In this document: positions 950-16,299 of the stretch, in pieces
How the letters are laid out: every line of letters starts with the position of its first letter
Position numbering within the stretch: the stretch's first letter is position 1
From: a virus
Length of the DNA: 35,554 bases
Strand: one strand, 5' to 3'
IMG/VR virus record: IMGVR_UViG_3300028920_000173
Location: 1-35,554 of that record
Program-made: the position numbers and the translations under genes
The notes under the pieces: generated by a model
The model's input: the letters and a program-made list of their open reading frames with translations, nothing else
Told to the model about the DNA's origin: nothing
The model's database searches: none

Positions 950-3900
950 TTATAAAAGTTCTTCTAATAAAACATTATATCTTTTTAAATTCATATCCTG
1001 TTTAGCTTTACGAGTGTTCTTATTTTTTTTATACTCAAAAATTTTATCTCTATGTTTAAGTCGAAATTTACTTAAATTGACTTCTCTTCTGTCTTTATAA
1101 TCTTCTAAATTCAAATTATTTTTAATTTCTTCTATATCTATATATATACCTTTCTTTTTAAATATCTTTTTTATTTCTTTATCAGACTTTAATTTTACAT
1201 ATAAATCAATATAAAGTGCCGATCCTTTTTTATACATATCATTTTTGCTTACTTCTTTCATATCTTTTTGTAAGTTTAAATTTATTTGTATTAATTCGAT
1301 CAATTTTTCTAATACATTAGAACCATCTTCTATGAATTCACTGCTACAATAATCTAATGCTAATTCGTTAACACCGGAATTATTTTTCATAAAATATAAA
1401 TCTTGTGAATCAACACAATTTTCAACAATTGCTACTTTATAAGCATTTTTATTATCAGAACGGCAAATTCTACCAACGTTTTGATTAACATATGTTAATC
1501 TTTGATTACTAATTTTAGTTTTTATATCATCAGAATTTAAATTCTTATCTGCTGTATCTATACCTAAATGACGAGGTTTATAAATATCAGCATCCACAAT
1601 AGCGATATCATAAGGCTTAAAATCATATCCACGAGCATAAGCAGTAAGAGAACCCATCACAAACATACTATACTTATTCATTATCTCATCATCGAAACTG
1701 CCATCCATCCCTCTTGTATAATCTTTAGTACCTTTTCCTGTTAATTCCGCAATATCCGTAAAATTATGCTGTTTTTGTATTTTGTTGTATAACTTTGTAG
1801 CGCCCTCTGCCGTCGGTGTAAATTTTAACATTTTTAAATTAATGTTGTTTAACATCATATTCAACATTGACAAATCATTAACTGACAAATTCCCATTAAT
1901 TCCAATATAAGTTATTTTTTTAATACGCTGTTCCGAATTGTCAACTTTAATCAATTTAACTTTATTTTCCATGACTTTATATACCGCATTTTTAATTAAT
2001 TCCTCTAAATGCCAAGTAGCAGTAAATCCAATAACTTTCACTTTAGTGCTTTTAAATAACAATAAAGGTAAACAATCATAGACATCTAACATTTGTGTAT
2101 TACAAGAATAATAAGGAAATTTAACCAACTCTTTTCTTTCTTTAATTTCCATTTCTCTAATATCATTCAAATCAATTTCAAGTCCTTCTTTATATGTAGG
2201 ATAAAACCTTATCAGTTTAGGATTATAACCAGTTTTAATAATGTCTTTTATAAAATCGTTTACATCATAAATTTTATTCTCATCATCCACAAATTCTCTT
2301 TCTGATATATCAATCTGTTTCAAAAAGTGTTTCGAATTATTAATATTAGTATAAGACGTATTTAAATCTGTCAGTTTGATTTCACTTTCTAACAAATTAT
2401 TAAAAATATTTTGATCTATTCCTTGTTTTTGATTAAAACGCCTGTTAGTGCTATAATCTCTAATTATATTTTCATGAAAAAATTCGTATATATTATCAAT
2501 TTCATTGTAAGTGTATATTGAATTATTGCCGTTGATACACTGGTCGCAAGTTACTTTGTAACATCCTTTTTTAGTAGCGTGGCATTTTCTTAATTTTGTA
2601 TAAACGGTTGTATCTTTTTGCCCTTTATCCACTGCTTTTTTATATCTTTCTTGTAAATTAATACTTATTATATTACTGTTTAAAAAGTAATCAATTTCAT
2701 CAATCAAAACTAATGGTTTATACGTGTCTATATACTTCCATAATGAAAATATGAATGCTGAATGTCCTTTTCTTTTAATATAAGTGTGGTGTGTAATTAT
2801 TAATTTAATTTCTTCTAAATTATACTCAGATAAATTTGTTCCCGCTTGTAAAACAAGAATTCTTTCGTCCTCTAAAAAATTTATATCTTCAGATTTTAAC
2901 CTTTCTTTTAAATTTTCAATATGTTTTTTGTTTTGACTTACCAAAATTGTTGGTTTATTGTTATTAAGCCTATTAATCGCCGTAAATATCATCTCATACG
3001 TTTTTCCGCTTCCCGTCGGTGCTATAATATTCACAAAATTTTCTTTTGATTGTAAGGCATCATTCACTGCGGTTTGTAAATCTTCAGTGGAACTTCTTTC
3101 CATAAAATATTTTGGTTTGATTGATCTTTTATATGTATCGAATAAATTTTGAATATGTGGAAGTTTATCTGTTAATATATCTTTACAATGTTCATGGAAA
3201 CAATTATGATAAACCTTCCAACCAGAATGAGTATAAGATAAATATATATTATATTCTGTATTAGAACCATCTTTATGATCATAAAAAGGGTCTTTTCCAA
3301 TTAATTTTTCTTGTGCTGAACCTTTCATTTTCACTCTTTTGTAATTCCAATTAAAATCTGTTGTCATCACATGTTCTAAAAGATTTAACATTTCAGAGTA
3401 TTCATCAATATCATAATCAATATTAACTTCATTTTTTCTATTCTTTTTTAAAATTTCTTTAAATTGTTTAAAATCTTTTTCAGAAAGTTCATTTAACTCG
3501 CCAACAATATTATATTTTTCTTTCCCGTCATAATCTCCATACACAGAAATAGAGGTAGCGCCATATTGTATCTCAAATCCAAAATTCTTTAAATTTTCTG
3601 CTTTACTGCTTAGATAGTCCGGATTAGAAAATAAATACAATGCTTTAAATTTTATTTTCTTTTCAATTAGTTCTTTTATTGTATATTCTTTAAATTCATT
3701 AGTAGGACAATGATACGACACCATAGTGTCATCAATTTCAAAATCTACCGGTAATTTATCATAATTGTCAATATCGACTGACAACAAATTAAATTTATAG
3801 CCTGTCCTAAGCCCGATTGTCGGGTATTCTGAAAATAAATAATCTTTAGCCCGATCCCATTTGCTACTCATATTGTCATTTTTTAAATTTCTTTTTCTAT

Positions 3901-5959
3901 ATTTAGGGATCGGCTCTAACCCCATATTCCTAAGTTTATCTACAATTTCTAAAAAATTATCATTTTTTTTTATGTCAAAAAGTGAATATTGATTAGGATC
4001 GTCTTTTTTCTTTGACTTCTTTTTTTCTTCTTTTTCAACACTATCTATTAATTTCCAGCACTCTTCTATATAGTAATTATAATCTAAATTATCGGGTATG
4101 CTGTTATTTTCGATATTGTTTACAATAATAGCATTATCCGAGTTAGCAAGCGAAATATAACCTTTCTTTTTACCTTTTATTTTATTTTCAGGGATTATTT
4201 CCTTTTTTCCGTTCTTACCGCCCCACTTCTTTATCACAGCACCGCCTGTTCCCTGTTTAGCAACATACCAACGGACAAAATCATCCACTTGTAAATCATT
4301 TTGGCTATAGATAAAATCTTTGGAAGATTTAGAATAATATAAAAATTCATGTAAATCTTTACAATTTTTAATTGTTTTTTCAGGTTCTATTCCCTTTGTG
4401 AAATAATCAATTAACGCCAATTTAACAATATTTATCTGACTTTTTGCAGCAATATAATCGTCTGTATTGATTGTAAAAATACCTTTTAACTTTAATTTTC
4501 CGTTAAAATCTTCCGATAAATAATTATTAACATCTCTTCTTACATAAGTTTTATATTCGCTTTTCTCTAATCCGAAACCTGTGGCCTGTTCCCATTCTTT
4601 TATTATGTTATCGAACTCATTTAATTTTGTTTGTTTAACTTTACATAAAACACCATCAGTATTAGCGGATATAATCTCAAATCCTTTTTCTGTAAACATT
4701 TCAATAAGTTTTAATAAATATAATTGCCCATTTATCGTTACTTGTAAAGTACATAGAGGATCATAAAGAAAAGAATATTGATCGTTTAATTTTCCGAAAG
4801 TACTGTTAAGAACGATTTTTAAACCGTTGGAAGTATTTTTATCTCCGCTTTTCTTTGCTTTAACTCTCATATCGAAAATTTCTTTATAAGTTGTTAAGTA
4901 TTCCTCACCTAAATTTGAAGGGTAAATATTTTTATTAATCATTATAGAAGGGTAATAAGAAGTTACATCTACGTCTATTAATTTGTATTCTTCATTAGAA
5001 TAAAATTTACCTTGTTTATCAACACTATGTAAACCGCCAATACCAAAGTCATATTGTTTTCCATTAAATTCAATTCTTTGTTTCACATTCTCATATTGTA
5101 AATTTTTACTAACTTCATCAATAGTTATAAATTTTTCAAGTAAATTATTCAAAAATGTTTGTAATTCTTTACTTTTAAATTCAATATCTTTGAATATTAC
5201 TTGCCGCATTTGTATAATTTCACGTTCAGAACGTATTTTTTTAATTTCCCATATTTTTTTGCCTGTTTTTTCAGCATATCGATTAGCAAGAATTTCCTCT
5301 GCTACTTTCGGATTTTTAATCGTTGTTAATTCAGAACCAACATTAAATAAATTTTCTAATGTCAATTTACTCTCAAAACTACTTTTAACCATAGGCATAT
5401 TATAAGCAATTAAAGTAATATTTATGTCATGTTGGTTATATTTAATTACTTCATCAAATTCTTTTTCTGTTAAATAGGTATCAAATTGATACGGTAAACT
5501 TTGGAGTGTTTTATAGTGTTTTTTAATTCCAAGTTCTTTTAACGAAATTCCACGTTGTGCATAAGAATTAAATATATCATAACTCTTTTTCCATGTATGA
5601 GGAGTATATTTCAGCCTATTATATTCATTTCGGCGATCTCCGTTTATAATTCCATAACTACATTCGTATAAAAGCGAGTTAGTTATTATTATATTATTAT
5701 ATTGTATATCTCCATCTTCGCTTATAGCAAAAGGAATTTGTATATATTTTAATATAATGTCGTCATACGAATAATTGTTATAACCTATTAATTCTAAATC
5801 TTTTTCTAATAAGAATTGTTTTAAATCCTGTATAGAACCATAATTTTTATAATCTTTATTATTAAATAAAGCGAATTCTTTTTTAATGGAACGATCAGGG
5901 TTAATGAACGTTACAAAGAAGGCATTAGGATAGATTTCTATATCATATACATATCTCAT
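950..5959 (-). CDS. Fused family-B DNA polymerase / primase-like / SF2 helicase replicase
   Basis: One uninterrupted 1669-codon frame. Residues 1-190 hold a 3'-5' exonuclease: D6/E8 (ExoI), N61-D67 (ExoII), Y174-x3-D178 (ExoIII). Residues 327-480 hold the family-B palm: motif A DVTSYYP (331-337), motif B KIVLNSTFGK (381-390), motif C ANTDG (432-436), KTY (470-472). A Lys/Glu-rich linker carries QYSLF (657-661), a beta-clamp-binding-type peptide. Residues about 668-840 resemble a PrimPol/AEP primase: DID at 729-731, a possible SYH at 748-750, and the family-like strand FEIQYG at 795-800. H918/C920/H922/H924/C925 form a metal-binding-type cluster. The SF2 helicase follows: APTGSGKT (980-987), DEID (1087-1090), TAT (1313-1315), QNVGRICR (1493-1500), with four extra cysteines at 1126-1141. 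The C-terminus is basic. AGGAAA precedes the ATG at 5959. The polymerase and helicase calls are strong; the primase call is moderate. Confidence 0.88.
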   Translation of the reverse strand: MRYVYDIEIYPNAFFVTFINPDRSIKKEFALFNNKDYKNYGSIQDLKQFLLEKDLELIGYNNYSYDDIILKYIQIPFAISEDGDIQYNNIIITNSLLYECSYGIINGDRRNEYNRLKYTPHTWKKSYDIFNSYAQRGISLKELGIKKHYKTLQSLPYQFDTYLTEKEFDEVIKYNQHDINITLIAYNMPMVKSSFESKLTLENLFNVGSELTTIKNPKVAEEILANRYAEKTGKKIWEIKKIRSEREIIQMRQVIFKDIEFKSKELQTFLNNLLEKFITIDEVSKNLQYENVKQRIEFNGKQYDFGIGGLHSVDKQGKFYSNEEYKLIDVDVTSYYPSIMINKNIYPSNLGEEYLTTYKEIFDMRVKAKKSGDKNTSNGLKIVLNSTFGKLNDQYSFLYDPLCTLQVTINGQLYLLKLIEMFTEKGFEIISANTDGVLCKVKQTKLNEFDNIIKEWEQATGFGLEKSEYKTYVRRDVNNYLSEDFNGKLKLKGIFTINTDDYIAAKSQINIVKLALIDYFTKGIEPEKTIKNCKDLHEFLYYSKSSKDFIYSQNDLQVDDFVRWYVAKQGTGGAVIKKWGGKNGKKEIIPENKIKGKKKGYISLANSDNAIIVNNIENNSIPDNLDYNYYIEECWKLIDSVEKEEKKKSKKKDDPNQYSLFDIKKNDNFLEIVDKLRNMGLEPIPKYRKRNLKNDNMSSKWDRAKDYLFSEYPTIGLRTGYKFNLLSVDIDNYDKLPVDFEIDDTMVSYHCPTNEFKEYTIKELIEKKIKFKALYLFSNPDYLSSKAENLKNFGFEIQYGATSISVYGDYDGKEKYNIVGELNELSEKDFKQFKEILKKNRKNEVNIDYDIDEYSEMLNLLEHVMTTDFNWNYKRVKMKGSAQEKLIGKDPFYDHKDGSNTEYNIYLSYTHSGWKVYHNCFHEHCKDILTDKLPHIQNLFDTYKRSIKPKYFMERSSTEDLQTAVNDALQSKENFVNIIAPTGSGKTYEMIFTAINRLNNNKPTILVSQNKKHIENLKERLKSEDINFLEDERILVLQAGTNLSEYNLEEIKLIITHHTYIKRKGHSAFIFSLWKYIDTYKPLVLIDEIDYFLNSNIISINLQERYKKAVDKGQKDTTVYTKLRKCHATKKGCYKVTCDQCINGNNSIYTYNEIDNIYEFFHENIIRDYSTNRRFNQKQGIDQNIFNNLLESEIKLTDLNTSYTNINNSKHFLKQIDISEREFVDDENKIYDVNDFIKDIIKTGYNPKLIRFYPTYKEGLEIDLNDIREMEIKERKELVKFPYYSCNTQMLDVYDCLPLLLFKSTKVKVIGFTATWHLEELIKNAVYKVMENKVKLIKVDNSEQRIKKITYIGINGNLSVNDLSMLNMMLNNINLKMLKFTPTAEGATKLYNKIQKQHNFTDIAELTGKGTKDYTRGMDGSFDDEIMNKYSMFVMGSLTAYARGYDFKPYDIAIVDADIYKPRHLGIDTADKNLNSDDIKTKISNQRLTYVNQNVGRICRSDNKNAYKVAIVENCVDSQDLYFMKNNSGVNELALDYCSSEFIEDGSNVLEKLIELIQINLNLQKDMKEVSKNDMYKKGSALYIDLYVKLKSDKEIKKIFKKKGIYIDIEEIKNNLNLEDYKDRREVNLSKFRLKHRDKIFEYKKNKNTRKAKQDMNLKRYNVLLEELL

Positions 5960-6031
5960 AATAAATTTCCTTTTTTTTTGTTTATTATGAGATATATCGA
6001 ATTTAATAAACGGAAAACAAAGAAATTAAAT

Positions 6032-6289
6032 TTATTTTATTTTTAAATTATTATTATTAGATATTTTAGAAGTAGGAACAATTTTATTATATTCTTTCAT
6101 TATTTTTTTTAGGTCTGTATATATTTCGTGATAATCCATACTTGTTGTAATTGGTTCTTCTGAACCGTCGGTTCTATGCGTTTCAAAAAAAATTGAAACG
6201 CATACATAATCAATATTTTCCTTAAAACCATAAATTTTAATCTTTCTGGAAAGAAGATTAGGCGAATATACTATAAATAAAACAGATTT
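6032..6289 (-). pseudogene. Antirepressor (AntA)-like fragment lacking a start codon
   Basis: This leftward frame is open for 86 codons from just after a stop at 6290-6292 to TAA at 6032-6034. Its text includes RKIKIYGFKENIDYV and, further on, TTSMDYHEIYTDLKKI. This resembles the AntA antirepressor pattern in which ...YGFxENxDY is followed by a KDYHLTLDMAKEL-like segment. No ATG, GTG or TTG occurs in frame before the late Met of TTSMDYH, and the upstream side is the 19-bp inverted repeat, so it reads as a decayed N-terminally truncated gene. Two inverted repeats lie inside it. An unusual start codon, or a structured non-coding region that is open by chance, remain possible. Confidence 0.4.
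6175..6204. repeat. Perfect 12-bp inverted repeat
   Basis: TATGCGTTTCAA (6175-6186) pairs exactly with TTGAAACGCATA (6193-6204) around six A residues. Just to its left, GGTTC (6153-6157), GAACC (6162-6166) and GGTTC (6170-6174) alternate, so two mutually exclusive short hairpins can form next to this one. It lies inside the antirepressor-like remnant. There is no T-run on the expected side, so it does not look like an intrinsic terminator. Confidence 0.8.
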
Positions 6290-6332
6290 TTAGCTATTAC
6301 CAATTAAATTATAAATTGGTAATAGCTAAAAA
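6287..6332. repeat. Perfect 19-bp inverted repeat
   Basis: TTTTTAGCTATTACCAATT (6287-6305) is the exact reverse complement of AATTGGTAATAGCTAAAAA (6314-6332), with an 8-base loop. The T-tract is on the 5' arm and the A-tract on the 3' arm, the opposite of a bidirectional intrinsic terminator, so another role is more likely: protein-binding site, origin hairpin or structured RNA. It separates the antirepressor-like remnant from the rightward small frame at 6339. Confidence 0.85.
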
Positions 6333-6338
6333 ATAAAC

Positions 6339-6488
6339 ATGAAAGGATTAAAAAAGTGTTTTAGAGTAATCAATATTGGAGTATTGATTACTCCTTTAAC
6401 AACACGCAATTTAATAAAACTTAAATTAAAGATAATAAAAATAGCTGTAAAAGTCAAATTTTTAAAAAGTTTTTATAATTCTGTTTAA
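6339..6488 (+). CDS. Possible small basic, hydrophobic peptide (49 aa)
   Basis: ATG at 6339 opens a 49-residue frame ending in TAA at 6486-6488. The product starts MKGLKKCFRV. Its C-terminal half alternates Lys with Ile, Leu and Val (for example KLKLKIIKIAVKVK), giving a strongly cationic, amphipathic peptide without acidic residues. No clear ribosome-binding site is seen; the 19-bp hairpin ends only 6 bases before the ATG. A perfect 12-bp inverted repeat lies inside it. The frame could be chance in A-rich DNA, or a small membrane-active peptide. Coding status is uncertain. Confidence 0.25.
   Translation: MKGLKKCFRVINIGVLITPLTTRNLIKLKLKIIKIAVKVKFLKSFYNSV
6364..6393. repeat. Perfect 12-bp inverted repeat
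   Basis: GAGTAATCAATA (6364-6375) pairs exactly with TATTGATTACTC (6382-6393) around TTGGAG. Outer bases GTGTT and AACAC can extend the stem imperfectly. No T-run follows. It is the third of four hairpins in this region. Confidence 0.8.
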
Positions 6489-6610
6489 AAATCCGATATA
6501 ATATAATACAGTAAAGAAATTATAACTAATTTGACTTGTTATTTATATATCATAAAGGCATTACAGATTTCCTTGTTCCTTAAATCGGGTAAAGTTATTA
6601 CATAACATTA

Positions 6611-6639
6611 TTGAATTTTCTTTGTAATTTATTTATAGA
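6611..6639 (+). promoter_or_regulatory. Possible sigma-70-type promoter for the HTH gene
   Basis: TTGAAT (6611-6616) and TATAGA (6634-6639) are 17 bases apart. A start near 6646 would place the 16-bp inverted repeat (6668-6708) in the early transcript and the HTH start at 6833. In DNA this AT-rich, such matches also occur by chance. Confidence 0.35.
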
Positions 6640-6667
6640 AAAGATATATAATTTTAAATTTAAACCT

Positions 6668-6708
6668 TGTAGTCATTTTTTGCTATATATAAGCAAAAAA
6701 TGACTACA
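6668..6708. promoter_or_regulatory. Perfect 16-bp inverted repeat, candidate operator for the HTH gene
   Basis: TGTAGTCATTTTTTGC (6668-6683) is the exact reverse complement of GCAAAAAATGACTACA (6693-6708), with a 9-base AT loop. The half-site AAAAAATGACTACA recurs at 6794-6807, about 25 bases before the HTH start. The octamer AAACCTTG occurs beside both sites (6662-6669 and 6807-6814). Repeated half-sites upstream of an HTH gene suggest autoregulation; this is inference. Confidence 0.5.
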
Positions 6709-6793
6709 GAATAAAAAGAAAAATTCCAATATAATTGTTAACTGGAAATGACACAAGGAGTAGAAGCGAGATTACAAAGATTTAACTTCATAA

Positions 6794-6807
6794 AAAAAAT
6801 GACTACA
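6794..6807 (+). promoter_or_regulatory. Third copy of the AAAAAATGACTACA half-site
   Basis: Exact 14-base copy of the right arm of the 6668-6708 inverted repeat, followed by AACCTTG. It lies just upstream of the Shine-Dalgarno sequence of the HTH gene, where a bound protein could block transcription or initiation. Confidence 0.4.
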
Positions 6808-6832
6808 AACCTTGAAAAGGAGTATCTATTCA

Positions 6833-7249
6833 ATGTTTATATCTATTTTACGTGAATGTTTACTTTATAAATTAGTTAAAAAATCAGAAATTTCAAAACA
6901 CTTAAAAATTTCTATTAGGTTTTTAAATTATGCTATTAGAGAACAAAGAGACCTAAAAAAATTTGAAAAAAAGTTAGTCAAATACCTTAAAAAACAAAAA
7001 AATTTGATTGAAAAATTGAATTTTGAATTAACAGAAGATAACATAAATTATATTTATAATTGCTTTATAGAAAACAAATTAACCGATAACAATGAATTAT
7101 TAGAGTATTCCGATAACCGCTTATCTTTATCGACTATAAAAAATTGGAATAAAAAGAAATGGCATACAGAGGAGAGTAAAAAAACGATGTATAACACTTT
7201 AAAACACTTATTAGTTACAAAAAAGATAAGATTTAATAATATTTTATAA
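6833..7249 (+). CDS. Helix-turn-helix-type regulator, paralogue A
   Basis: A 138-residue basic protein starting MFISILRE. I place the start at ATG 6833 because AAGGAG (6817-6822) lies 10 bases upstream; the in-frame TTG at 6812 has no such site. A first HTH-like segment (VKKSEISKHLKISIRFLNYAIREQ) lies near residues 17-40, after the start. A second near the C-terminus reads LSLSTIKNWNKKKWHTEES. The C-terminal part aligns with the gene at 7913-8347 (LSIGTINRWNEMRHSKET), so the two are paralogues. Its 3' end overlaps the convergent sigma factor gene by 6 bases. A DNA-binding regulator of phage transcription is likely; its target is unknown, although the half-sites upstream are candidates. Confidence 0.7.
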   Translation: MFISILRECLLYKLVKKSEISKHLKISIRFLNYAIREQRDLKKFEKKLVKYLKKQKNLIEKLNFELTEDNINYIYNCFIENKLTDNNELLEYSDNRLSLSTIKNWNKKKWHTEESKKTMYNTLKHLLVTKKIRFNNIL

Positions 7250-7855
7250 ATAACTTCTTAACTGTTTTGCTTCTAATAAACGCCTTAATTCTATCTTATG
7301 CTGGTTTAATAAACTTGTAATTTTATTTTCAGACACTTTCAAAACCCTTGAAACTTCATTTAGCGTTAAGTTTTCAAGAAAATAAAGAATAAAAATTTTA
7401 GAAACGAGATTAGAAAAATTATTTTTTAAAGTATCTACTATTGTTTCTGTTATATAATTAGAATTATCTTCATAACTTGGGTCATGTTCTATTCGGCATT
7501 CCAATAAATCAATAATTTCAACATCTTGATCTACTTTAACATTAAGACTATTTTCTATAAAATAAATAGGATCTCTTTTTTTACTTACTTTACGTAGATA
7601 ATCGAGAATAGACCCTTTCAGCCTGCTATAAACAAAAGCACTAAAAGAAGTATTAAACTTTAGTTTGTACCGGTCTATCTGCTTATTTAGTTCCATTAAG
7701 GCAATTTGATACAAATCGGATTTATCTATAAAGTTTGGCAGTGTTGTTTTAACATCTTTTACTGCCTTTATACATAGATGCTTATAAGTGGCTACCAAAT
7801 TACCTTTAAGTTTTTTATTTTTTTTATATTTTTTCCATAAGTTTTTATCTTTCAT
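7244..7855 (-). CDS. Phage sigma factor of the sigma-70 family, FliA/sigma-28-like
   Basis: A 203-residue protein with a conserved sigma layout. The N-terminus NLWKKYKK (5-12) resembles the sigma-28 opening. Region 2 includes FIDKSDLYQIALMELNKQID (42-61) and FSAFVYSRLKGSILDYLRK (71-89), matching the region 2 pattern in which a YA-type -10 helix is followed by R-(I/L)-(R/K)-G-(A/S)-(I/M)-L-D-x-LR. Region 4 (about 163-198) carries a terminal HTH, LTLNEVSRVLKVSENKI. Region 3 is short. It should redirect host RNA polymerase to phage promoters, probably those of late genes. AAAGGA precedes ATG 7855. It is transcribed away from HTH paralogue B and towards paralogue A, which makes a compact regulatory island. 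Confidence 0.85.
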   Translation of the reverse strand: MKDKNLWKKYKKNKKLKGNLVATYKHLCIKAVKDVKTTLPNFIDKSDLYQIALMELNKQIDRYKLKFNTSFSAFVYSRLKGSILDYLRKVSKKRDPIYFIENSLNVKVDQDVEIIDLLECRIEHDPSYEDNSNYITETIVDTLKNNFSNLVSKIFILYFLENLTLNEVSRVLKVSENKITSLLNQHKIELRRLLEAKQLRSYL

Positions 7856-8401: not shown

Positions 8402-10051
8402 ATGAAAGATATTTGCTTACGAAAATATCAGATCGAATGTATCGAAAAAATTCAACAGCATTTAAAAAGTAATAACTCTTGTATAGTTACTTTACCGACA
8501 GGAGCGGGTAAGACGATTGTTTTTACAGCATTATCCAAACAAACTTTTAATCGTGTTTTAGTAATATCACACAGGGATGAGCTTGTATTTCAAACCATAG
8601 AAAAAGCAAAATATTTTTATAAGGATAAAGATATCGGTATTGCTAAAGCGGATTTATGGGACGTGGACGGTAAAAAGATTATAAGTGCTTCGATACAGAC
8701 TTTATATAATCGATTAAATCAATTAAAATTCACTAAGAATTTAGATGCGATAATTATCGATGAAACTCACCATTTTGCTAAAAACACTTATTTAGAAGTG
8801 TATAATAGTATTAAAAAATTAAATCCGAATGTAAAATTAATCGGATTTACTGCTACACCTTTTAGAAGCGATAAACAATCATTAATTCCATATTTTGGAC
8901 AGTTGGTATATAATAAAGACATTAGATTTATGTTAAAACATAATTACTTAGTAAACCCTTTATTTGTTAGGATTGGTTTAGGAAAGAAAACAGAAGATTA
9001 CTTTAAAGATATTCGTAAATTTAAAGTAAATGAGGATTATTATAAGTTAAATTCCACTATTGATTTAAATAAAATATTTGTAAATACTTTGTTGGATCGT
9101 TGTAAAGAAAGGCAATGTATTGTTTTTTGCGAAAGTGTGGAACATTCTATTCTTATAAATCGGTTGTTGAACGAAATTGGAGTAAAAAGTGAACATATAG
9201 ACGGAACAACAGATAAATTTTTACGTAAACAAATAATTACTAATTATAAAAAAAATCAAATACAATATTTAACTAACTATGCTGTTTTGACAGAAGGTGT
9301 TGACTTGCCTAATACTTCTTGCATTGCTATTATAAGAAAAAGTGATAATTTACTTTTATATACCCAAATGATAGGTCGAGGTTTGCGGTTAAGTTATGAA
9401 ACAGATAAAGTTGATTGTAAAATATTAGAATTTTATCAAACACCGAGAAATCGATTAGGGAATTTCGGAAAGTTATTTAAGATTAACAAACTTATTAAAG
9501 AAATGAATATTACATCAAAAGATTTGGAAGAATTTGAAGAGATTAAATTAGATGTAAATGACGAACTAAGCAATGATTATGAAGATATTATTTTAAAATT
9601 CAAGAAAGAGGATGAAGTTGGATTTATAGATGATGAAAAAGTAACTTTTTACAAACTAATTTTTAGGATGTTAAATTCCAATATTATGTTATGTAATTTT
9701 GAGAATAAGTTTATTATTATGGAAGAAAGTAAAATTAATTTATATAATGTCGCTGTTATACAGAAAGAAGGCTATAACTATAACCTTCTTAAATTAATAG
9801 ACGACTTGGATAAAGACATTGCTTATTCAACAATGCTGGATTTGTACCATCAAGAACAAACTCACGATTTAAGTAAATTAAAATCTATGATTTACAAAGA
9901 GATTACAAATAAACAAATAGAATTAATTCGTAAATTTCCATTTAGGAATTTCTTAAATAAAAAAATTCAATTAAATTCTTTAAACCGTTATGACGCTTCT
10001 GCTCTCATATCTTACTTATTTTATATGAATTATAGATTAAAAAAATTATAA
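8402..10051 (+). CDS. SF2 DEAD/DEAH-box helicase
   Basis: A 549-residue protein with a full SF2 motif set: LRKYQ (6-10), Walker A LPTGAGKT (31-38), DETH (120-123), TAT (150-152), LTEGVDLP (296-303) and QMIGRGLR (322-329). This order is that of RecG/UvrB/YeeB-like phage DEAH helicases that unwind duplex or branched DNA with ATP. The last 200 residues are acidic and lysine-rich with no motif I recognise. It starts the rightward replication genes and is separate from the helicase fused to the polymerase, so the phage encodes two SF2 helicases. Candidate roles are origin opening, fork remodelling or recombination. AAGGTG lies shortly before the ATG. Confidence 0.88.
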   Translation: MKDICLRKYQIECIEKIQQHLKSNNSCIVTLPTGAGKTIVFTALSKQTFNRVLVISHRDELVFQTIEKAKYFYKDKDIGIAKADLWDVDGKKIISASIQTLYNRLNQLKFTKNLDAIIIDETHHFAKNTYLEVYNSIKKLNPNVKLIGFTATPFRSDKQSLIPYFGQLVYNKDIRFMLKHNYLVNPLFVRIGLGKKTEDYFKDIRKFKVNEDYYKLNSTIDLNKIFVNTLLDRCKERQCIVFCESVEHSILINRLLNEIGVKSEHIDGTTDKFLRKQIITNYKKNQIQYLTNYAVLTEGVDLPNTSCIAIIRKSDNLLLYTQMIGRGLRLSYETDKVDCKILEFYQTPRNRLGNFGKLFKINKLIKEMNITSKDLEEFEEIKLDVNDELSNDYEDIILKFKKEDEVGFIDDEKVTFYKLIFRMLNSNIMLCNFENKFIIMEESKINLYNVAVIQKEGYNYNLLKLIDDLDKDIAYSTMLDLYHQEQTHDLSKLKSMIYKEITNKQIELIRKFPFRNFLNKKIQLNSLNRYDASALISYLFYMNYRLKKL

Positions 10052-10057
10052 AAATAC

Positions 10058-10086
10058 TTGACTTTTTTTATAATTTTTATTACCTT
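10058..10086 (+). promoter_or_regulatory. Promoter P1 of the repeated promoter-leader family
   Basis: TTGACT (10058-10063), a 17-base spacer and TACCTT (10081-10086), followed by the shared leader TTATTTATAAGTTTTAAG and an A-run. It begins only 7 bases after the helicase stop. Unlike the other copies it is not followed by GAGGTAA and ATG, but by a coding remnant and then the acidic-protein gene at 10176. Confidence 0.65.
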
Positions 10087-10114
10087 TTATTTATAAGTTT
10101 TAAGAAAAAAAAAA

Positions 10115-10165
10115 GCTAATTGGGATGATGTAGAAGCGCATATATTAGAAAATTTTAAAAAGTAA
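10115..10165 (+). pseudogene. Short coding remnant between P1 and the acidic-protein gene
   Basis: The frame reads ANWDDVEAHILENFKK and stops at 10163-10165, with no start codon upstream in frame before the A-run of the leader. It looks like the 3' end of a gene whose front was lost when the promoter segment was joined here. It ends just before GGAG, the ribosome-binding site of the next gene. It may also be non-coding. Confidence 0.3.
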
Positions 10166-10175
10166 GGAGAAAATC

Positions 10176-10568
10176 ATGTTAGCACACATTTTAGAAAGAA
10201 TAGGAAAAAACATTAAAGATTTTGACGACCCGACATGGGGCTATTATTTCCCTGTTGTAGATTGGAAAAACAACATAATTGACTTTGTAGATATATCAGA
10301 GCCGGTTATGAGAAAGATAAGACAACATAAGCATTATAAGAATGCTTATTATTACCCTAAGTTCTTAGGTGATGACGAGCTATTGGATAAATATAAGGAA
10401 TGGGTTGAGGATTTTGATATTGATGAATATGAATATGAAGCATATAACCATCAATATCAAATATCTTTGTTTATGGATTCTATTGATTATGATATAACAG
10501 AAAAACAAGAAAAATTATTAAAAGAAAGCTCTGAGGAGCTGGTCTATAATATTTTTAATGAGGTGTAA
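10176..10568 (+). CDS. Small acidic protein with a clamp-binding motif
   Basis: A 130-residue protein, rich in Asp, Glu and Tyr. AAGGAGAAAATC precedes the ATG, a strong ribosome-binding site. I do not recognise the family. Residues 95-99 are QISLF, which fits the bacterial beta-clamp-binding consensus QL(S/D)LF and follows an acidic stretch (DFDIDEYEYEAY, 79-90). The gene ends 2 bases before the clamp gene, so the two are almost certainly co-translated. I infer that it binds the phage clamp, or the host clamp, as a loading aid, adaptor or inhibitor. The coding sequence contains a 9-bp perfect inverted repeat (10327-10335/10341-10349). Confidence 0.75.
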   Translation: MLAHILERIGKNIKDFDDPTWGYYFPVVDWKNNIIDFVDISEPVMRKIRQHKHYKNAYYYPKFLGDDELLDKYKEWVEDFDIDEYEYEAYNHQYQISLFMDSIDYDITEKQEKLLKESSEELVYNIFNEV

Positions 10569-11475: not shown

Positions 11476-11515
11476 AAAAAAGTCAAGTATTTTTATAAAA
11501 ATACTTGACTTTTTT
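11476..11515 (+). terminator. 40-bp perfect palindrome, terminator overlapping promoter P2
   Basis: AAAAAAGTCAAGTATTTTTA (11476-11495) is the exact reverse complement of bases 11496-11515. It starts 8 bases after the clamp stop codon and ends in a T-run, as an intrinsic terminator does. It is symmetrical, so it can act in both directions. Its right arm contains TTGACT, the -35 box of promoter P2. Confidence 0.7.
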
Positions 11516-11533
11516 TATAATCTTTATTATATT
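11505..11533 (+). promoter_or_regulatory. Promoter P2 of the repeated family
   Basis: TTGACT (11505-11510), 17 bases, TATATT (11528-11533). It is followed by the shared leader TTTATTTATAAGTTTTAAG, an A-run, GAGGTAA and ATG at 11572. Near-consensus spacing and repetition before other genes make this a convincing sigma-70 promoter. Confidence 0.75.
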
Positions 11534-11571
11534 TTATTTATAAGTTTTAAGAAAAAAAAAGAGGTAATATT

Positions 11572-12246
11572 ATGAAAAAATTTTTAGAAATTTTTAAAAT
11601 TAGACAAGAAGATATTAAAGAAATCAAAGAGTATATAAAAGAAGAACTCGATATTTGTAGAAATGAAACTCAAGTTATAGTAAGAGATGATTTGGAAAAG
11701 GTAATCGATAAAATCTATTATGATAAAGCACTTAACATTTACAATTACGATAAAATAGAGGATCTGTGGGATACAAACCACATCATAGAGAGCGATCTAT
11801 TCACAGAACAGGAGCAGGTTAATATAAGAAAATACATCCTAAATAATTTAGGATATGAAGAACTTGATGATTATGATGATGGAGATATACCGGGTCTGAA
11901 TAGGATAAGAGAACAGTTAGAACAACTTATAATGGATGCGATTGAAGAGTGGCAGGAGGAGGAGATTAGAAAATTTGATAGTGAAGATAAAGAATTAAAA
12001 GAAAAATATAAGAACAAAAGAAATTTCATAACTGAATATTTAAAGGAAGGGCAGATTGAAACTAATGCCGATATACAATTTGGTTCTTATAAGCATTGGA
12101 GTTCCGTCCCTTATATCGAGATAAATGGAAAAGATAAATTGTTTTTAGCATATACAAGTACCACGATTAATTACTCACAATACATAACCACAGCAGGAGA
12201 ATGGACGTATGCGGAACTAAGAAGATTTTTAGATCATAGAATTTAA
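11572..12246 (+). CDS. Hypothetical protein, 224 aa
   Basis: Starts MKKFLEIFK behind GAGGTAATATT, the same start context as the two following cassette genes. It is highly charged: about 130 residues rich in Glu, Asp and Lys, with predicted helices such as DLEKVIDKIYYDKALNIYNY, then an acidic segment (DDYDDGD near 103-109), and a C-terminal part with more aromatic residues. I recognise no family. It has its own promoter (P2) and no overlap with neighbours, so it seems an independently expressed accessory gene. A 9-bp perfect palindrome lies at 11836-11854. Confidence 0.7.
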   Translation: MKKFLEIFKIRQEDIKEIKEYIKEELDICRNETQVIVRDDLEKVIDKIYYDKALNIYNYDKIEDLWDTNHIIESDLFTEQEQVNIRKYILNNLGYEELDDYDDGDIPGLNRIREQLEQLIMDAIEEWQEEEIRKFDSEDKELKEKYKNKRNFITEYLKEGQIETNADIQFGSYKHWSSVPYIEINGKDKLFLAYTSTTINYSQYITTAGEWTYAELRRFLDHRI

Positions 12247-12300
12247 TTTTTTATAATCTTATTATATTTTATTTATAAGTTTTAAGAAAAAAAAAAGAGG
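12247..12300 (+). promoter_or_regulatory. Leader repeat copy 3 with a degenerate promoter
   Basis: Starts directly after the stop codon of the preceding gene. It keeps TATATT (12263-12268), the leader TTTATTTATAAGTTTTAAG, the A-run and GAGG of the repeat family, but the TTGACT box is lost and the spacer is one base shorter. Transcription of the methyltransferase gene from here is probably weaker, or depends on read-through from P2. Confidence 0.55.
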
Positions 12301-12309
12301 TAAAATATT

Positions 12310-14982
12310 ATGAAAAAGTTTATCGATAAAATAAAAAGAATTATTGAAATAAATCCGGATGCAAAAAAAGCATTCGACGATTTTTTGGAAGGACTTCAAA
12401 AAAATATTAATCCGTCGCTTAATCAAGATGAAGCGATAGAAATGTTGGCACAGCATGTTATTACAAAACCAGTTTTCGAAGCTCTGTTCAAAGGTTATTC
12501 TTTTGTGAAGAATAATCCGGTTTCCGTATCAATGCAGAATATTATGACAATATTAGACGAAAACGCTATCGAAAAAGAAACAGAGCAATTACAAAAATTC
12601 TATGAATCAGTAAGGAAAAGAGCAGAGGGCATTGACAACGCCGAAGGAAGGCAAAAAGTCATTATCGAATTATACAATAAGTTTTTTAAAACAGCTTTTC
12701 CTAAATTAGTCGAGAGACTCGGTATTGTTTATACGCCTGTTGAGTTGGTCGATTTTATCATAAATTTTGTTAATGAAATACTCAAAAAGGAATTCGGGCG
12801 AACTATTTCCGATGAAAATATCAATATTTTAGAACCGTTCGTAGGTACGGGAACATTTATTACAAGATTATTACAAAGCGGATTGATAAAGAAAAAAGAT
12901 TTGAAAAGAAAATACGAAAAAGAAATACACGCAAACGAAATTGTTCTTTTGGCTTATTATATCGCCGCCGTGAATATTGAAAACGCTTATCACGATATCA
13001 TAGGCGGAGATTATGTCGATTTTAACGGCATTTGCCTGACCGATACTTTTCAGCTGTATGAAAGCGATGATGACTCTGAAATGTTCGAACATTTCAAAGA
13101 AAATTCAGAAAGAATACGCAAACAAAAAAAGAAACCGATACAGGTTATCATAGGTAATCCGCCTTATTCTAAGAATCAAAAATCAGCTAATGATAATGCA
13201 CAAAATCAAACATATCCGAAATTAGAACAAAAGATACGAGATACTTATGCAGAAGCATCTTATGGGAAAGGACAAGGTTCCGGTCAAGATTCTTATATAA
13301 AAGCATTTCGCTGGTCTACGGACAGATTAAACCCGAACGAAAACGGAATTATATGTTTTGTCTCGAATAGCGGATGGCTGGACAGTATAAGTCTTGACGG
13401 TTTCCGAAAAACAATAGAGGAAGAATTCTCTAAAATATATGTTTTTAATTTAAGAGGAAATGCGAGAACAAGTGGAGAATACCGTAGAAAAGAAGGCGGC
13501 GGGATTTTTGACAGTGGTTCTCGAGCTTCCGTAACGATAACTTTATTAATAAAAAGCAAAGAGATTAAAAAAGAGAAAGCTGAAATATTCTATTATGATA
13601 TAGGCGACTACCTGAAAAAAGAAGAGAAATTAAAGATTATCAAAGATTTTAGCAGAGACCCTTTAAATATGAAATGGAAACTGATTAAACCCAATAAATT
13701 CGGGGATTGGCTGAATCAAAGAGGCGATGAATTTTATAATTTTACAACAATTAAACCCGAAAAATTATTTGTGGATAACAGTAAATCTTATTTTAGTATT
13801 AGCTCAACAGGTATATCTACAAGCAGAGATGTATGGGCATATAATTTTTCTAAAAAAGAATTATCAAAAAATATGAATAATATGACTGATTTTTACAATA
13901 GCCAATTGGATGCTTTTAAGGAAAATTTTGAAGAAAAAAAGAGAAAAAGTAAAAAAAATTACAAATCTGATGAGAAAATGAAATTAATTAAAGATTTTAT
14001 AGATTATGATGACAAGAAAATTAGTTGGTCACGTAAGTTATGGAGACAAATAAGAGCTGATAATAAATCAAAATTTACGGAAAAGAACATAAGAGTAGGT
14101 GTTTATAGACCTTTTTGTAAACAATATTTGTATTTTGAAGAAATAATGACAGACGCATTCGCAGAATTTTTTAAGATATTCCCAAATGACAATTTAGAAA
14201 ATTTTGTTATTTGTGTAAGTACTAAGGGTTTTAAAAAAGAGTTCACACCATTATTTACAGATAATTTTACAGATACTCATTTATTAGATAACGGAACACA
14301 ATGCTTCCCGCTTTATTATTATGAAGAGTCGTCAAAAGAGCAAGTCGATCTTTTTGAAGGAAAAACCAAATACGAACGTAAGGACGGCATCTCCTATTTT
14401 ATTCTGAATAAGGCTCATCGTCAATACGGCAAAAATGTTGGTAAGGAGGATATTTTTTATTATGTTTACGGAATTCTCCATTCAAAAGATTATGTCGAGA
14501 CTTTTAAAAACGATTTGAGGAAAAGTTCTCCGCATATTCCTCTTGTTGACGATGTGAAGGCTTTTTGGAAATTCAGCAAAGCCGGTCGGCAATTAGCCGA
14601 GTTGCATATAAATTATGAAAAAACCCCGCCGTATAAAGATTTGGTCGTTACGGGAGACGACAGCGGATTTTATACCGTTAAAAAAATGAAGTTCGTTAAG
14701 AAAGATAAAAAAGATAAGATAATTTATAATAGCAAAATCACAATCTCGAATATTCCTGATAAAGCTTATGAATATGTAGTAAATGGAAAATCAGCAATTG
14801 AATGGATCATGGATCGGTATCAATTGAAAACCGATAAGAAAAGCGGGATTACTAACGATCCTAATCTTTGGTGTGAAGAGATCGGCAATCCGAGATATAT
14901 CCTTGATTTGTTGATGAGCATCGTAACCGTCAGCGTGAAAACCGTCGATATAATTAATAGTCTGCCTGGATTGAGGTTTTAA
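12310..14982 (+). CDS. Solitary type ISP-like DNA adenine methyltransferase
   Basis: An 890-residue N6-adenine methyltransferase. Residues 1-135 are helical and match the coupler region that precedes the methyltransferase in type ISP enzymes. GIVYTPVELVDFI (138-150) is the motif X region, EPFVGTGTF (175-183) the AdoMet-binding motif I and NPPY (283-286) the catalytic motif IV. The conserved stretch KEIHANEIVLLAYYIAA (204-220) is typical of the LlaGI/LlaBIII and COG4889 group. The C-terminal half would hold the target recognition domain. Type ISP enzymes are about 1500-1600 residues with nuclease and helicase domains first; both are missing here, so it should modify but not cut. GC content and codon use (CGG, GCC, CCG near the 3' end) look higher than in its neighbours, which suggests transfer. 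QVDLF at 678-682 fits a clamp-binding peptide. Confidence 0.85.
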   Translation: MKKFIDKIKRIIEINPDAKKAFDDFLEGLQKNINPSLNQDEAIEMLAQHVITKPVFEALFKGYSFVKNNPVSVSMQNIMTILDENAIEKETEQLQKFYESVRKRAEGIDNAEGRQKVIIELYNKFFKTAFPKLVERLGIVYTPVELVDFIINFVNEILKKEFGRTISDENINILEPFVGTGTFITRLLQSGLIKKKDLKRKYEKEIHANEIVLLAYYIAAVNIENAYHDIIGGDYVDFNGICLTDTFQLYESDDDSEMFEHFKENSERIRKQKKKPIQVIIGNPPYSKNQKSANDNAQNQTYPKLEQKIRDTYAEASYGKGQGSGQDSYIKAFRWSTDRLNPNENGIICFVSNSGWLDSISLDGFRKTIEEEFSKIYVFNLRGNARTSGEYRRKEGGGIFDSGSRASVTITLLIKSKEIKKEKAEIFYYDIGDYLKKEEKLKIIKDFSRDPLNMKWKLIKPNKFGDWLNQRGDEFYNFTTIKPEKLFVDNSKSYFSISSTGISTSRDVWAYNFSKKELSKNMNNMTDFYNSQLDAFKENFEEKKRKSKKNYKSDEKMKLIKDFIDYDDKKISWSRKLWRQIRADNKSKFTEKNIRVGVYRPFCKQYLYFEEIMTDAFAEFFKIFPNDNLENFVICVSTKGFKKEFTPLFTDNFTDTHLLDNGTQCFPLYYYEESSKEQVDLFEGKTKYERKDGISYFILNKAHRQYGKNVGKEDIFYYVYGILHSKDYVETFKNDLRKSSPHIPLVDDVKAFWKFSKAGRQLAELHINYEKTPPYKDLVVTGDDSGFYTVKKMKFVKKDKKDKIIYNSKITISNIPDKAYEYVVNGKSAIEWIMDRYQLKTDKKSGITNDPNLWCEEIGNPRYILDLLMSIVTVSVKTVDIINSLPGLRF

Positions 14983-14990
14983 TTTTTTAT

Positions 14991-15033
14991 AAAAAAAGTC
15001 GAGTTTTTTTTATAAAAATACTTGACTTTTTTT
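14991..15033 (+). terminator. Imperfect palindrome after the methyltransferase gene
   Basis: An A-run plus GTCGAGT on the left and ACTTGAC plus a T-run on the right can pair with one G-T wobble and a few mismatches in the AT part. It is a diverged version of the 11476-11515 palindrome, begins 8 bases after the stop and overlaps the -35 box of P4. It probably acts as a terminator. Confidence 0.5.
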
Positions 15034-15050
15034 ATAATCTTTATTATATT
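15022..15050 (+). promoter_or_regulatory. Promoter P4 of the repeated family
   Basis: TTGACT (15022-15027), 17 bases, TATATT (15045-15050), identical in boxes and spacing to P2, followed by the same leader, A-run, GAGGTAAAATATT and ATG at 15091. Confidence 0.75.
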
Positions 15051-15090
15051 TTATTTATAAGTTTTAAGAAAAAAAAAGAGGTAAAATATT

Positions 15091-15354
15091 ATGAAAAAGT
15101 TTAACGATTATAAATTAACTAAAAAGTTTTTAAAAGAATGTTTAGAAAAACCCATGGTATGTAATTACTATGTGGACGAGAAAATCAATAGACTTGTGCA
15201 TTTTGCTTATAATAAATTGGATCTGTGTGGTTTAACGAAAAAAGAAAAAAATCAGGAAGTAATCAATTTTATTTACTCGCATTTGAGCGAGTATGACGAC
15301 ATTGAACATGGGGTCGCCGAGGTAAACGACTATTTAGAAAACAATATATTTTAA
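15091..15354 (+). CDS. Hypothetical protein, 87 aa
   Basis: Starts MKKFNDYKL behind the family leader and GAGGT. It is a small soluble protein, basic at the N-terminus and acidic at the C-terminus (HLSEYDDIEHGVAEVNDYLE), probably helical. No family is recognised. It has its own promoter (P4) and is followed by a run of three hairpins before the pentapeptide-repeat gene, which may share its transcript. Confidence 0.65.
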   Translation: MKKFNDYKLTKKFLKECLEKPMVCNYYVDEKINRLVHFAYNKLDLCGLTKKEKNQEVINFIYSHLSEYDDIEHGVAEVNDYLENNIF

Positions 15355-15468: not shown

Positions 15469-16299
15469 ATGAGAAAAATAAATAAAAAAGAATTAAAAGA
15501 AATTATAGAAAACCACAATATGTGGCTAAAGAGCGAAGGAGCGGAAGGACAGCGGGCGGATTTCTCAAATGCGAATTTAAGCCATAGGGATTTATCAGGT
15601 GCGAATTTGGCAGGTGTGAAATTTACAGGCGCTGACGCAACATGCGCTAACATATCTGAATGTGACTTAAGATATATCGATTTTTCAAATTCGGATTTAA
15701 ACTATACCGACTTTACGAATTCGAATTTGACCGGTGCGAATTTTACGAATTCCAATCTTAACAATGCGCATCTGACCGGTGCGAATTTAGAAGGTGCGGA
15801 TTTAGAAGGTGCGGATTTAAGACATGCCGAGTTCAACTTTTCCGATTTGAGTAGTGCTAATTTGACACGAGTTAAATTTTCTCGTGTAAAATTAAATTTA
15901 AATTGGCACGAGGAGTATCCCGCTTTCTTGAATTGCGGTAGCAAGTTTAGAAGTATAAGTTTATCCGATCCGGATTGGACGGATAAAGTAAAACGACAGA
16001 TAGATAAAATTTTATCTGCCTATAATTTCGAAGCCTTAACAATAATCCCGCCAAGCTCGGCTGCAATGGCGTCATATACGAGCATTTATCTTACAAAAAA
16101 GATAAAGGATATCAAACTACAGATTACAAAAAAAGTCGAAGGTGAGTATAAACTCGGCGAAGTTGTCGATTTCAACAAAGAAACAGAAGTGGAAAACCCA
16201 TTTGACTACAGTCATTGTTCTAATTGCCGATACGGAAATTTCCTCGACGCCGGCGGTTGGCACTGCCGATACAGGAACTACATAGATGCTGGGTGTTGA
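15469..16299 (+). CDS. Pentapeptide-repeat protein with Cys-rich C-terminus
   Basis: A 276-residue protein. Residues about 25-140 consist of A(D/N)(L/F)xx repeats (for example ANLEGADLEGADL), which form a right-handed quadrilateral beta helix. A different domain of about 110 residues follows, ending with SHCSNCRYGNF and GGWHCRYRNY, a possible metal-binding pair of CxxC and CR motifs. GAGGTAAATTATT precedes the ATG, as in the cassette genes. Some pentapeptide proteins mimic DNA and protect gyrase, but many have no known function; this one cannot be assigned. The stop is TGA. Confidence 0.8.
   Translation: MRKINKKELKEIIENHNMWLKSEGAEGQRADFSNANLSHRDLSGANLAGVKFTGADATCANISECDLRYIDFSNSDLNYTDFTNSNLTGANFTNSNLNNAHLTGANLEGADLEGADLRHAEFNFSDLSSANLTRVKFSRVKLNLNWHEEYPAFLNCGSKFRSISLSDPDWTDKVKRQIDKILSAYNFEALTIIPPSSAAMASYTSIYLTKKIKDIKLQITKKVEGEYKLGEVVDFNKETEVENPFDYSHCSNCRYGNFLDAGGWHCRYRNYIDAGC

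Follow-up and report, generated by a model that had tools for sequence, protein, structure and literature searches.

Replication enzymes joined in one polypeptide have been described in viruses and mobile elements. In HelPrimPolB, a viral family-B DNA polymerase (PolB) carries an SF3 helicase and a PrimPol domain N-terminal to the polymerase (PMC7544198). AEP-SF2 fusions with UL9-like relatives are known from the all3500 family (PMC5862659), and PolB-helicase fusions have also been published (PMC12721341). These precedents mean that the original prediction for the phage protein analysed here, that a single chain combining exonuclease, PolB, primase and SF2 helicase lacked a well-described phage counterpart, overstated the novelty of combining such activities.

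The window, meaning the whole stretch of DNA analysed, is the complete IMG/VR entry IMGVR_UViG_3300028920_000173 of 35,554 bases. It belongs to a low-GC tailed phage and is cut at both ends, where its first gene and the one for the tape measure run past the record; its other genes include terminase, a Mu-type portal and tail fibre. The fusion gene lies on the minus strand, a detail that the original prediction had left out, with its ATG at 5959, its stop at 950-952 and no stop across 1669 codons, while the plus strand of the same interval has stops throughout. The predicted single frame of 1669 residues is present, the residues singled out by number (D6/E8, Y174/D178, D331, D435, D729/D731 and K986) are each correct in the translation, and the order exonuclease-PolB-PrimPol-zinc-SF2 holds, including the PrimPol part, which was the weakest by eye and is backed by relatives. 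The features discussed below are as follows.

950..5959, minus strand: fusion gene, 1669 amino acids; exonuclease-PolB, clamp-type peptide, PrimPol-like domain, zinc-finger-like module, SF2 helicase, C-terminal tail
4004..5959, minus strand: exonuclease and PolB, residues 1-652; phrog_1252, invariant residues and PDB PolB matches
3977..3991, minus strand: QYSLF, residues 657-661; beta-clamp-binding-like peptide where PolB ends and PrimPol starts
3425..3976, minus strand: PrimPol/AEP-like domain, residues about 662-845; motif I D729/D731, motif III E796, K772 at motif II
3140..3385, minus strand: zinc-finger-like module, residues about 859-940; alignment with relatives L012 and L094
1370..3079, minus strand: SF2 helicase, residues 961-1530; Pfam DEAD and conserved motifs
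2537..2584, minus strand: cysteine cluster within the helicase (C1126, C1133, C1138, C1141), three of the four kept in L012
953..1369, minus strand: C-terminal tail, residues 1531-1669; no known family; 98 residues align with L012 at 34% identity
10571..11467, plus strand: DnaN-like sliding clamp; PF02767 at 1.5e-12, phrog_947 processivity factor at 1.6e-18

Residues 2-652 match the phrog_1252 DNA polymerase profile far beyond chance (E 2e-147), and a profile search of the PDB returned PolB structures (best E 1e-9). The 3'-5' exonuclease residues (D6, E8, N61/D66, Y174 and D178) are accompanied by polymerase motif A (D331), motif B (K381/N385/G389) and motif C (NTDG, D435); across eight aligned phage PolBs, D6, E8, D66, Y174, D178, D331, K381, N385, G389 and D435 are among the invariant positions. 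On the strength of these motifs and profiles, the PolB assignment is secure. The closest relatives found by tblastn are stand-alone PolBs of approximately 28-32% identity, which align with the N-terminal 38-40% of the fusion protein and no further. Another kind of PolB fusion was seen among the loci searched, in which about 240 amino acids follow PolB as an additional C-terminal domain (L015:9980-12604, and also L026 and L056); in L015 this domain weakly matches HHH_6, a helix-hairpin-helix family.

Relatives of the whole protein were sought with an alignment of PolB sequences, which yielded 80 IMG/VR loci, and then with one of PrimPol. Among those 80 loci the C-terminal half was matched only in L012, an IMG/VR contig of 12,176 bp with a 29-bp exact terminal repeat that, when joined at the repeat, contains one frame of 1605 codons (1588 amino acids from the Met). 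A single match to L012 spans residues 4-1513 of the window protein (29% identity over 1579 columns, 463 bits, E 2e-140), with identities by segment of 40% (PolB), 31% (PrimPol), 25% (zinc region) and 28% (SF2). The third member, L094, is truncated: its 3.6-kb contig, found in an Erysipelotrichaceae MAG, carries PolB-PrimPol-Zn-Walker A in one frame that ends at a TAG directly after GSGKT, 18 bases before the end of the contig, where L012 has TAT. L012 and L094 are 75-76% identical to each other and the window protein is diverged from both, so at least two lineages, well separated from each other, have the three-part order; the PolB tree did not resolve whether the window and L012/L094 form a clade.

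The source is a metagenomic contig that is incomplete at both ends, and the long frame might on that account be an artefact of assembly or gene calling that joined neighbouring genes. We regard such an accident as extremely improbable, because L012 and L094 carry the same order at low identity; homology also continues through the junctions, and the frame is uninterrupted. The fusion is thus confirmed as genuine, unless one artefact recurred in separate contigs. The searches brought to light only three members. Phage and plasmid records gave nothing significant for the C-terminal 1009 residues, scanning IMG/VR and GTDB genomes with single sequences uncovered no relatives, and tblastn of parts of L012 against phages gave no matches. 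A search for the DNA pattern of motif VI returned chance matches only, profiles run against 395 and 392 bacterial genomes gave one weak match that had no primase neighbour, and a profile search of the retrieved loci revealed no neighbouring gene for an unfused PrimPol-SF2 protein. One further candidate, L093, was rejected as a generic SF2 helicase match. The L012 record contains, besides the fusion, genes for terminase, an ERCC4 nuclease and an MT-A70 methylase, with no recognised capsid gene, and may represent a satellite or an incomplete genome.

The PrimPol-like domain is suggestive from the window alone and is supported through its relatives. An hhhDhD motif I and an acidic motif III are present in all three members, so that the metal-binding acids D729, D731 and E796 are retained despite overall identities of 28-30%. 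Taken alone, the window segment falls below the thresholds for PF09250 (no match) and phrog_1156 (0.04). The L094 domain reaches PF09250 at 22.9 bits against a cut-off of 22.8 (E 1.3e-4), and the phrog_1156 DNA primase profile matches both L094 (4e-12) and L012 (7e-7). Weak phage matches of the L094 domain, individually non-significant at E values of 4-6, are all annotated as primase or polymerase. When the family was compared by hhalign with four annotated Rep/PrimPol proteins (three of these weakly matching phage primase/polymerases and a plasmid replication ATPase), the one comparison gave a probability of 95% and an E value of 2e-8, somewhat favourable because the partners were chosen by weak similarity, and the acids of motifs I and III aligned. 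A PDB profile search with the PrimPol part gave no credible match, and AlphaFold models built from shallow alignments (pLDDT 35 and 39.5) were too poor for residues 660-850 to be compared with the AEP fold.

The motif II histidine is missing from all three members, its place being taken by K772 in the window and by Thr in L012 and L094, and the primase centre may for this reason be altered or dead. H750, which is invariant in the three members, was considered as the motif II residue and rejected, as profile alignment places motif II at 771-776. A domain that is not a primase might instead bind DNA or nucleotides, or couple the polymerase to the helicase, leaving priming to another primase of the phage or host; the loss of the first zinc ligand in the window and the sub-threshold scores of the window segment would fit such a role. 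Retention of the three metal-binding acids at so low an identity argues otherwise, as does the absence of any other recognised primase in this incomplete phage record. Furthermore, the motif II histidine is not universal in AEPs, natural examples having Gln, Lys or Arg, and an AEP that lacks it, PolpTN2, can be active (PMC5862659). On balance, a dead or non-primase domain seems unlikely, if far from negligible, and a PrimPol-type primase is the preferred reading.

Following PrimPol in L012 and L094 is a C-P-x-x-H...C-F-H-x-x-C pattern. The zinc-type motif of the original prediction is found as a module, but it is incomplete in the window, which retains three ligands (C920, H922 and C925) and has Asp in place of the first Cys. 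The helicase that comes next contains motif I (APTGSGKT, 980-987), motif II (DEID, 1087-1090), motif III (TAT, 1313-1315) and motif VI (QNVGRICR, 1493-1500), and these motifs, with K986, are conserved among the relatives at 28-30% identity. The expectation that all main SF2 motifs would be present is borne out for I, II, III and VI (QNxGRIxR) but not fully for motif V, a region in which only an Arg-Gly is shared. Scores against Pfam DEAD lie just above the 26-bit cut-off (27.1 bits for the window, 26.1 for L012), and a PDB profile search with the helicase part gave no credible match; as judged from its conserved motifs, the SF2 assignment is secure. The cysteine cluster within the helicase is a possible metal site.

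What the helicase does is a separate question. SF2 enzymes rarely act as fork helicases, and another SF2 helicase is encoded elsewhere in the phage, at 8402-10051. The helicase of the fusion may be of an initiation or origin-binding type rather than a fork type, such that the protein would start replication and PolB would then proceed mainly by strand displacement or with a host helicase. UL9-like AEP-SF2 fusions, for which such a role has been suggested, are described (PMC5862659), but neither the window nor L012 matches PF02399, the UL9-like family. An 850-bp non-coding stretch (5960-6811) between divergent genes borders the upstream end of the fusion gene, with several perfect inverted repeats of up to 19 nt. 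It is a possible origin or regulatory region, and the GC skew flips sign beside it, at approximately 6-8 kb, which would suit an origin-type helicase, but the skew also tracks the divergent orientation of the genes. We give this assignment a substantial chance, somewhat short of even, and it would refine the main explanation given below more than oppose it. At the same end of the gene, the start codon sits within a 17-bp RNA hairpin (5951-5995; -16.2 kcal/mol, z -6.6) with an AGGA-type ribosome site in its loop, which suggests translational control of the fusion gene; no such hairpin was seen in L012 or L094.

Between PolB and PrimPol, the QYSLF peptide resembles the clamp-binding motifs of Bacillus subtilis PolC and DnaE (QLSLF/QMGLF; PMC12309361). 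Several related PolBs end at this place in QLSLW, QLTLF, QLALF or QLNLF, with L059 terminating in DPNQLNLFG. A C-terminal Qxx[LMI][FWY] occurs in 10 of 86 related PolBs as against 1.65 expected, five of the ten being near-identical sequences. The DnaN-like clamp of the phage is a possible partner of QYSLF, and a clamp gene adjoins related PolB genes in Alteromonas, Rhizobium and Hafnia phages. L012 has no clear clamp motif at the junction and no clamp gene in its record. Just upstream of the clamp gene in the window, a 130-aa protein of no known function (10176-10568) contains a second clamp-type peptide, QISLF.

Taken together, these features make it likely that the gene encodes a protein for phage genome replication that covalently links a proofreading PolB, a PrimPol-type primase with a zinc-finger-like module and an SF2 helicase; its activities, primer hand-over, clamp binding and helicase role we infer. 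Most likely, DNA would be opened or remodelled by the SF2 part, either at an origin or in front of the polymerase. The PrimPol part would synthesise a short primer and pass it on internally to the active site of PolB, which would extend and proofread it while the sliding clamp tethered PolB to DNA through QYSLF. A bolder reading, which we hold only tentatively, is that all parts are active in a self-priming, self-unwinding and proofreading one-chain replicase that hands over primers directly and is tethered by the clamp; the protein would then define a distinct PolB-PrimPol-SF2 family. The earlier image of something close to a replisome in one chain is a hypothesis that presupposes activity of each part. 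Were the protein active, primer hand-over and helicase-polymerase coupling could be tested in one purified protein, and the enzyme might copy DNA without added primers.

Elsewhere in the record, a 108-nt intergenic element occurs in four copies (10043-10150, 11490-11597, 12225-12332 and 15007-15114) that have a AAGTCAAGTATTTTTATAAAAATACTTGACTT-like palindrome and a leader in common, possibly a family of phage promoters or operators. A Type ISP restriction-modification protein (12310-14982) has coupler and specificity domains and no nuclease or helicase part, and is probably a lone methyltransferase. The phage also encodes a Sigma-70 region 2/4 protein (7244-7855), and pentapeptide-type repeats (ANLSHRDLSGANLAG...) were seen by eye at 15469-16299.

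Comparison with known systems places the fusion among several partial counterparts. Its PrimPol domain shares with the Prim-Pol family PF09250 the DxD motif I, the acidic motif III and a downstream G..v..hp.G.eY pattern, and differs in the missing motif II histidine. In the AEP-SF2 proteins of the all3500 family, which are encoded by mobile elements, an SF2-type helicase likewise comes after an AEP, but no polymerase is attached (PMC5862659), and the fusion shows no sequence link to PF02399. Crass-like and small phage PolBs (phrog_1252) share the exonuclease and polymerase motifs at 29-37% identity and, in some, a clamp-type C-terminal peptide, but are stand-alone proteins of about 600-740 amino acids, with primase and helicase as separate genes. 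The Helicase SF1-pPolB of an Oxyrrhis polinton-like virus and Tlr1 are also long viral PolB-helicase fusions, but with a protein-primed PolB, an SF1 helicase and no primase domain, in eukaryotic viruses (PMC12721341).

HelPrimPolB is a viral counterpart that likewise unites PolB with PrimPol and a helicase in a single chain, and both proteins belong to the crAss-like/HelPrimPolB branch of the EpsilonN-like clade (PMC7544198). The shared activities, a PolB of the same neighbourhood and the NTDG motif C might suggest that the fusion is simply a member of the described group. This is very improbable: the order is reversed, with PolB starting at residue 2 and no PrimPol or SF3 domain before it, and the helicase, at 961-1530, is SF2 rather than SF3. 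A HelPrimPolB-like SF3-PolB fusion with its 5' end missing (L014), found among the searched loci, clusters in the PolB tree with L002 and L013, not with the window or L012. A literature search whose scope took in few subscription papers returned no report of PolB-PrimPol-SF2, and the PolB-PrimPol-Zn-SF2 order appears to be a new arrangement of parts that are fused elsewhere in viruses. There is thus more than one way in which polymerase, primase and helicase have become fused, with SF3 and PrimPol before PolB in HelPrimPolB and with PolB first, followed by PrimPol, a zinc-like module and SF2, here.
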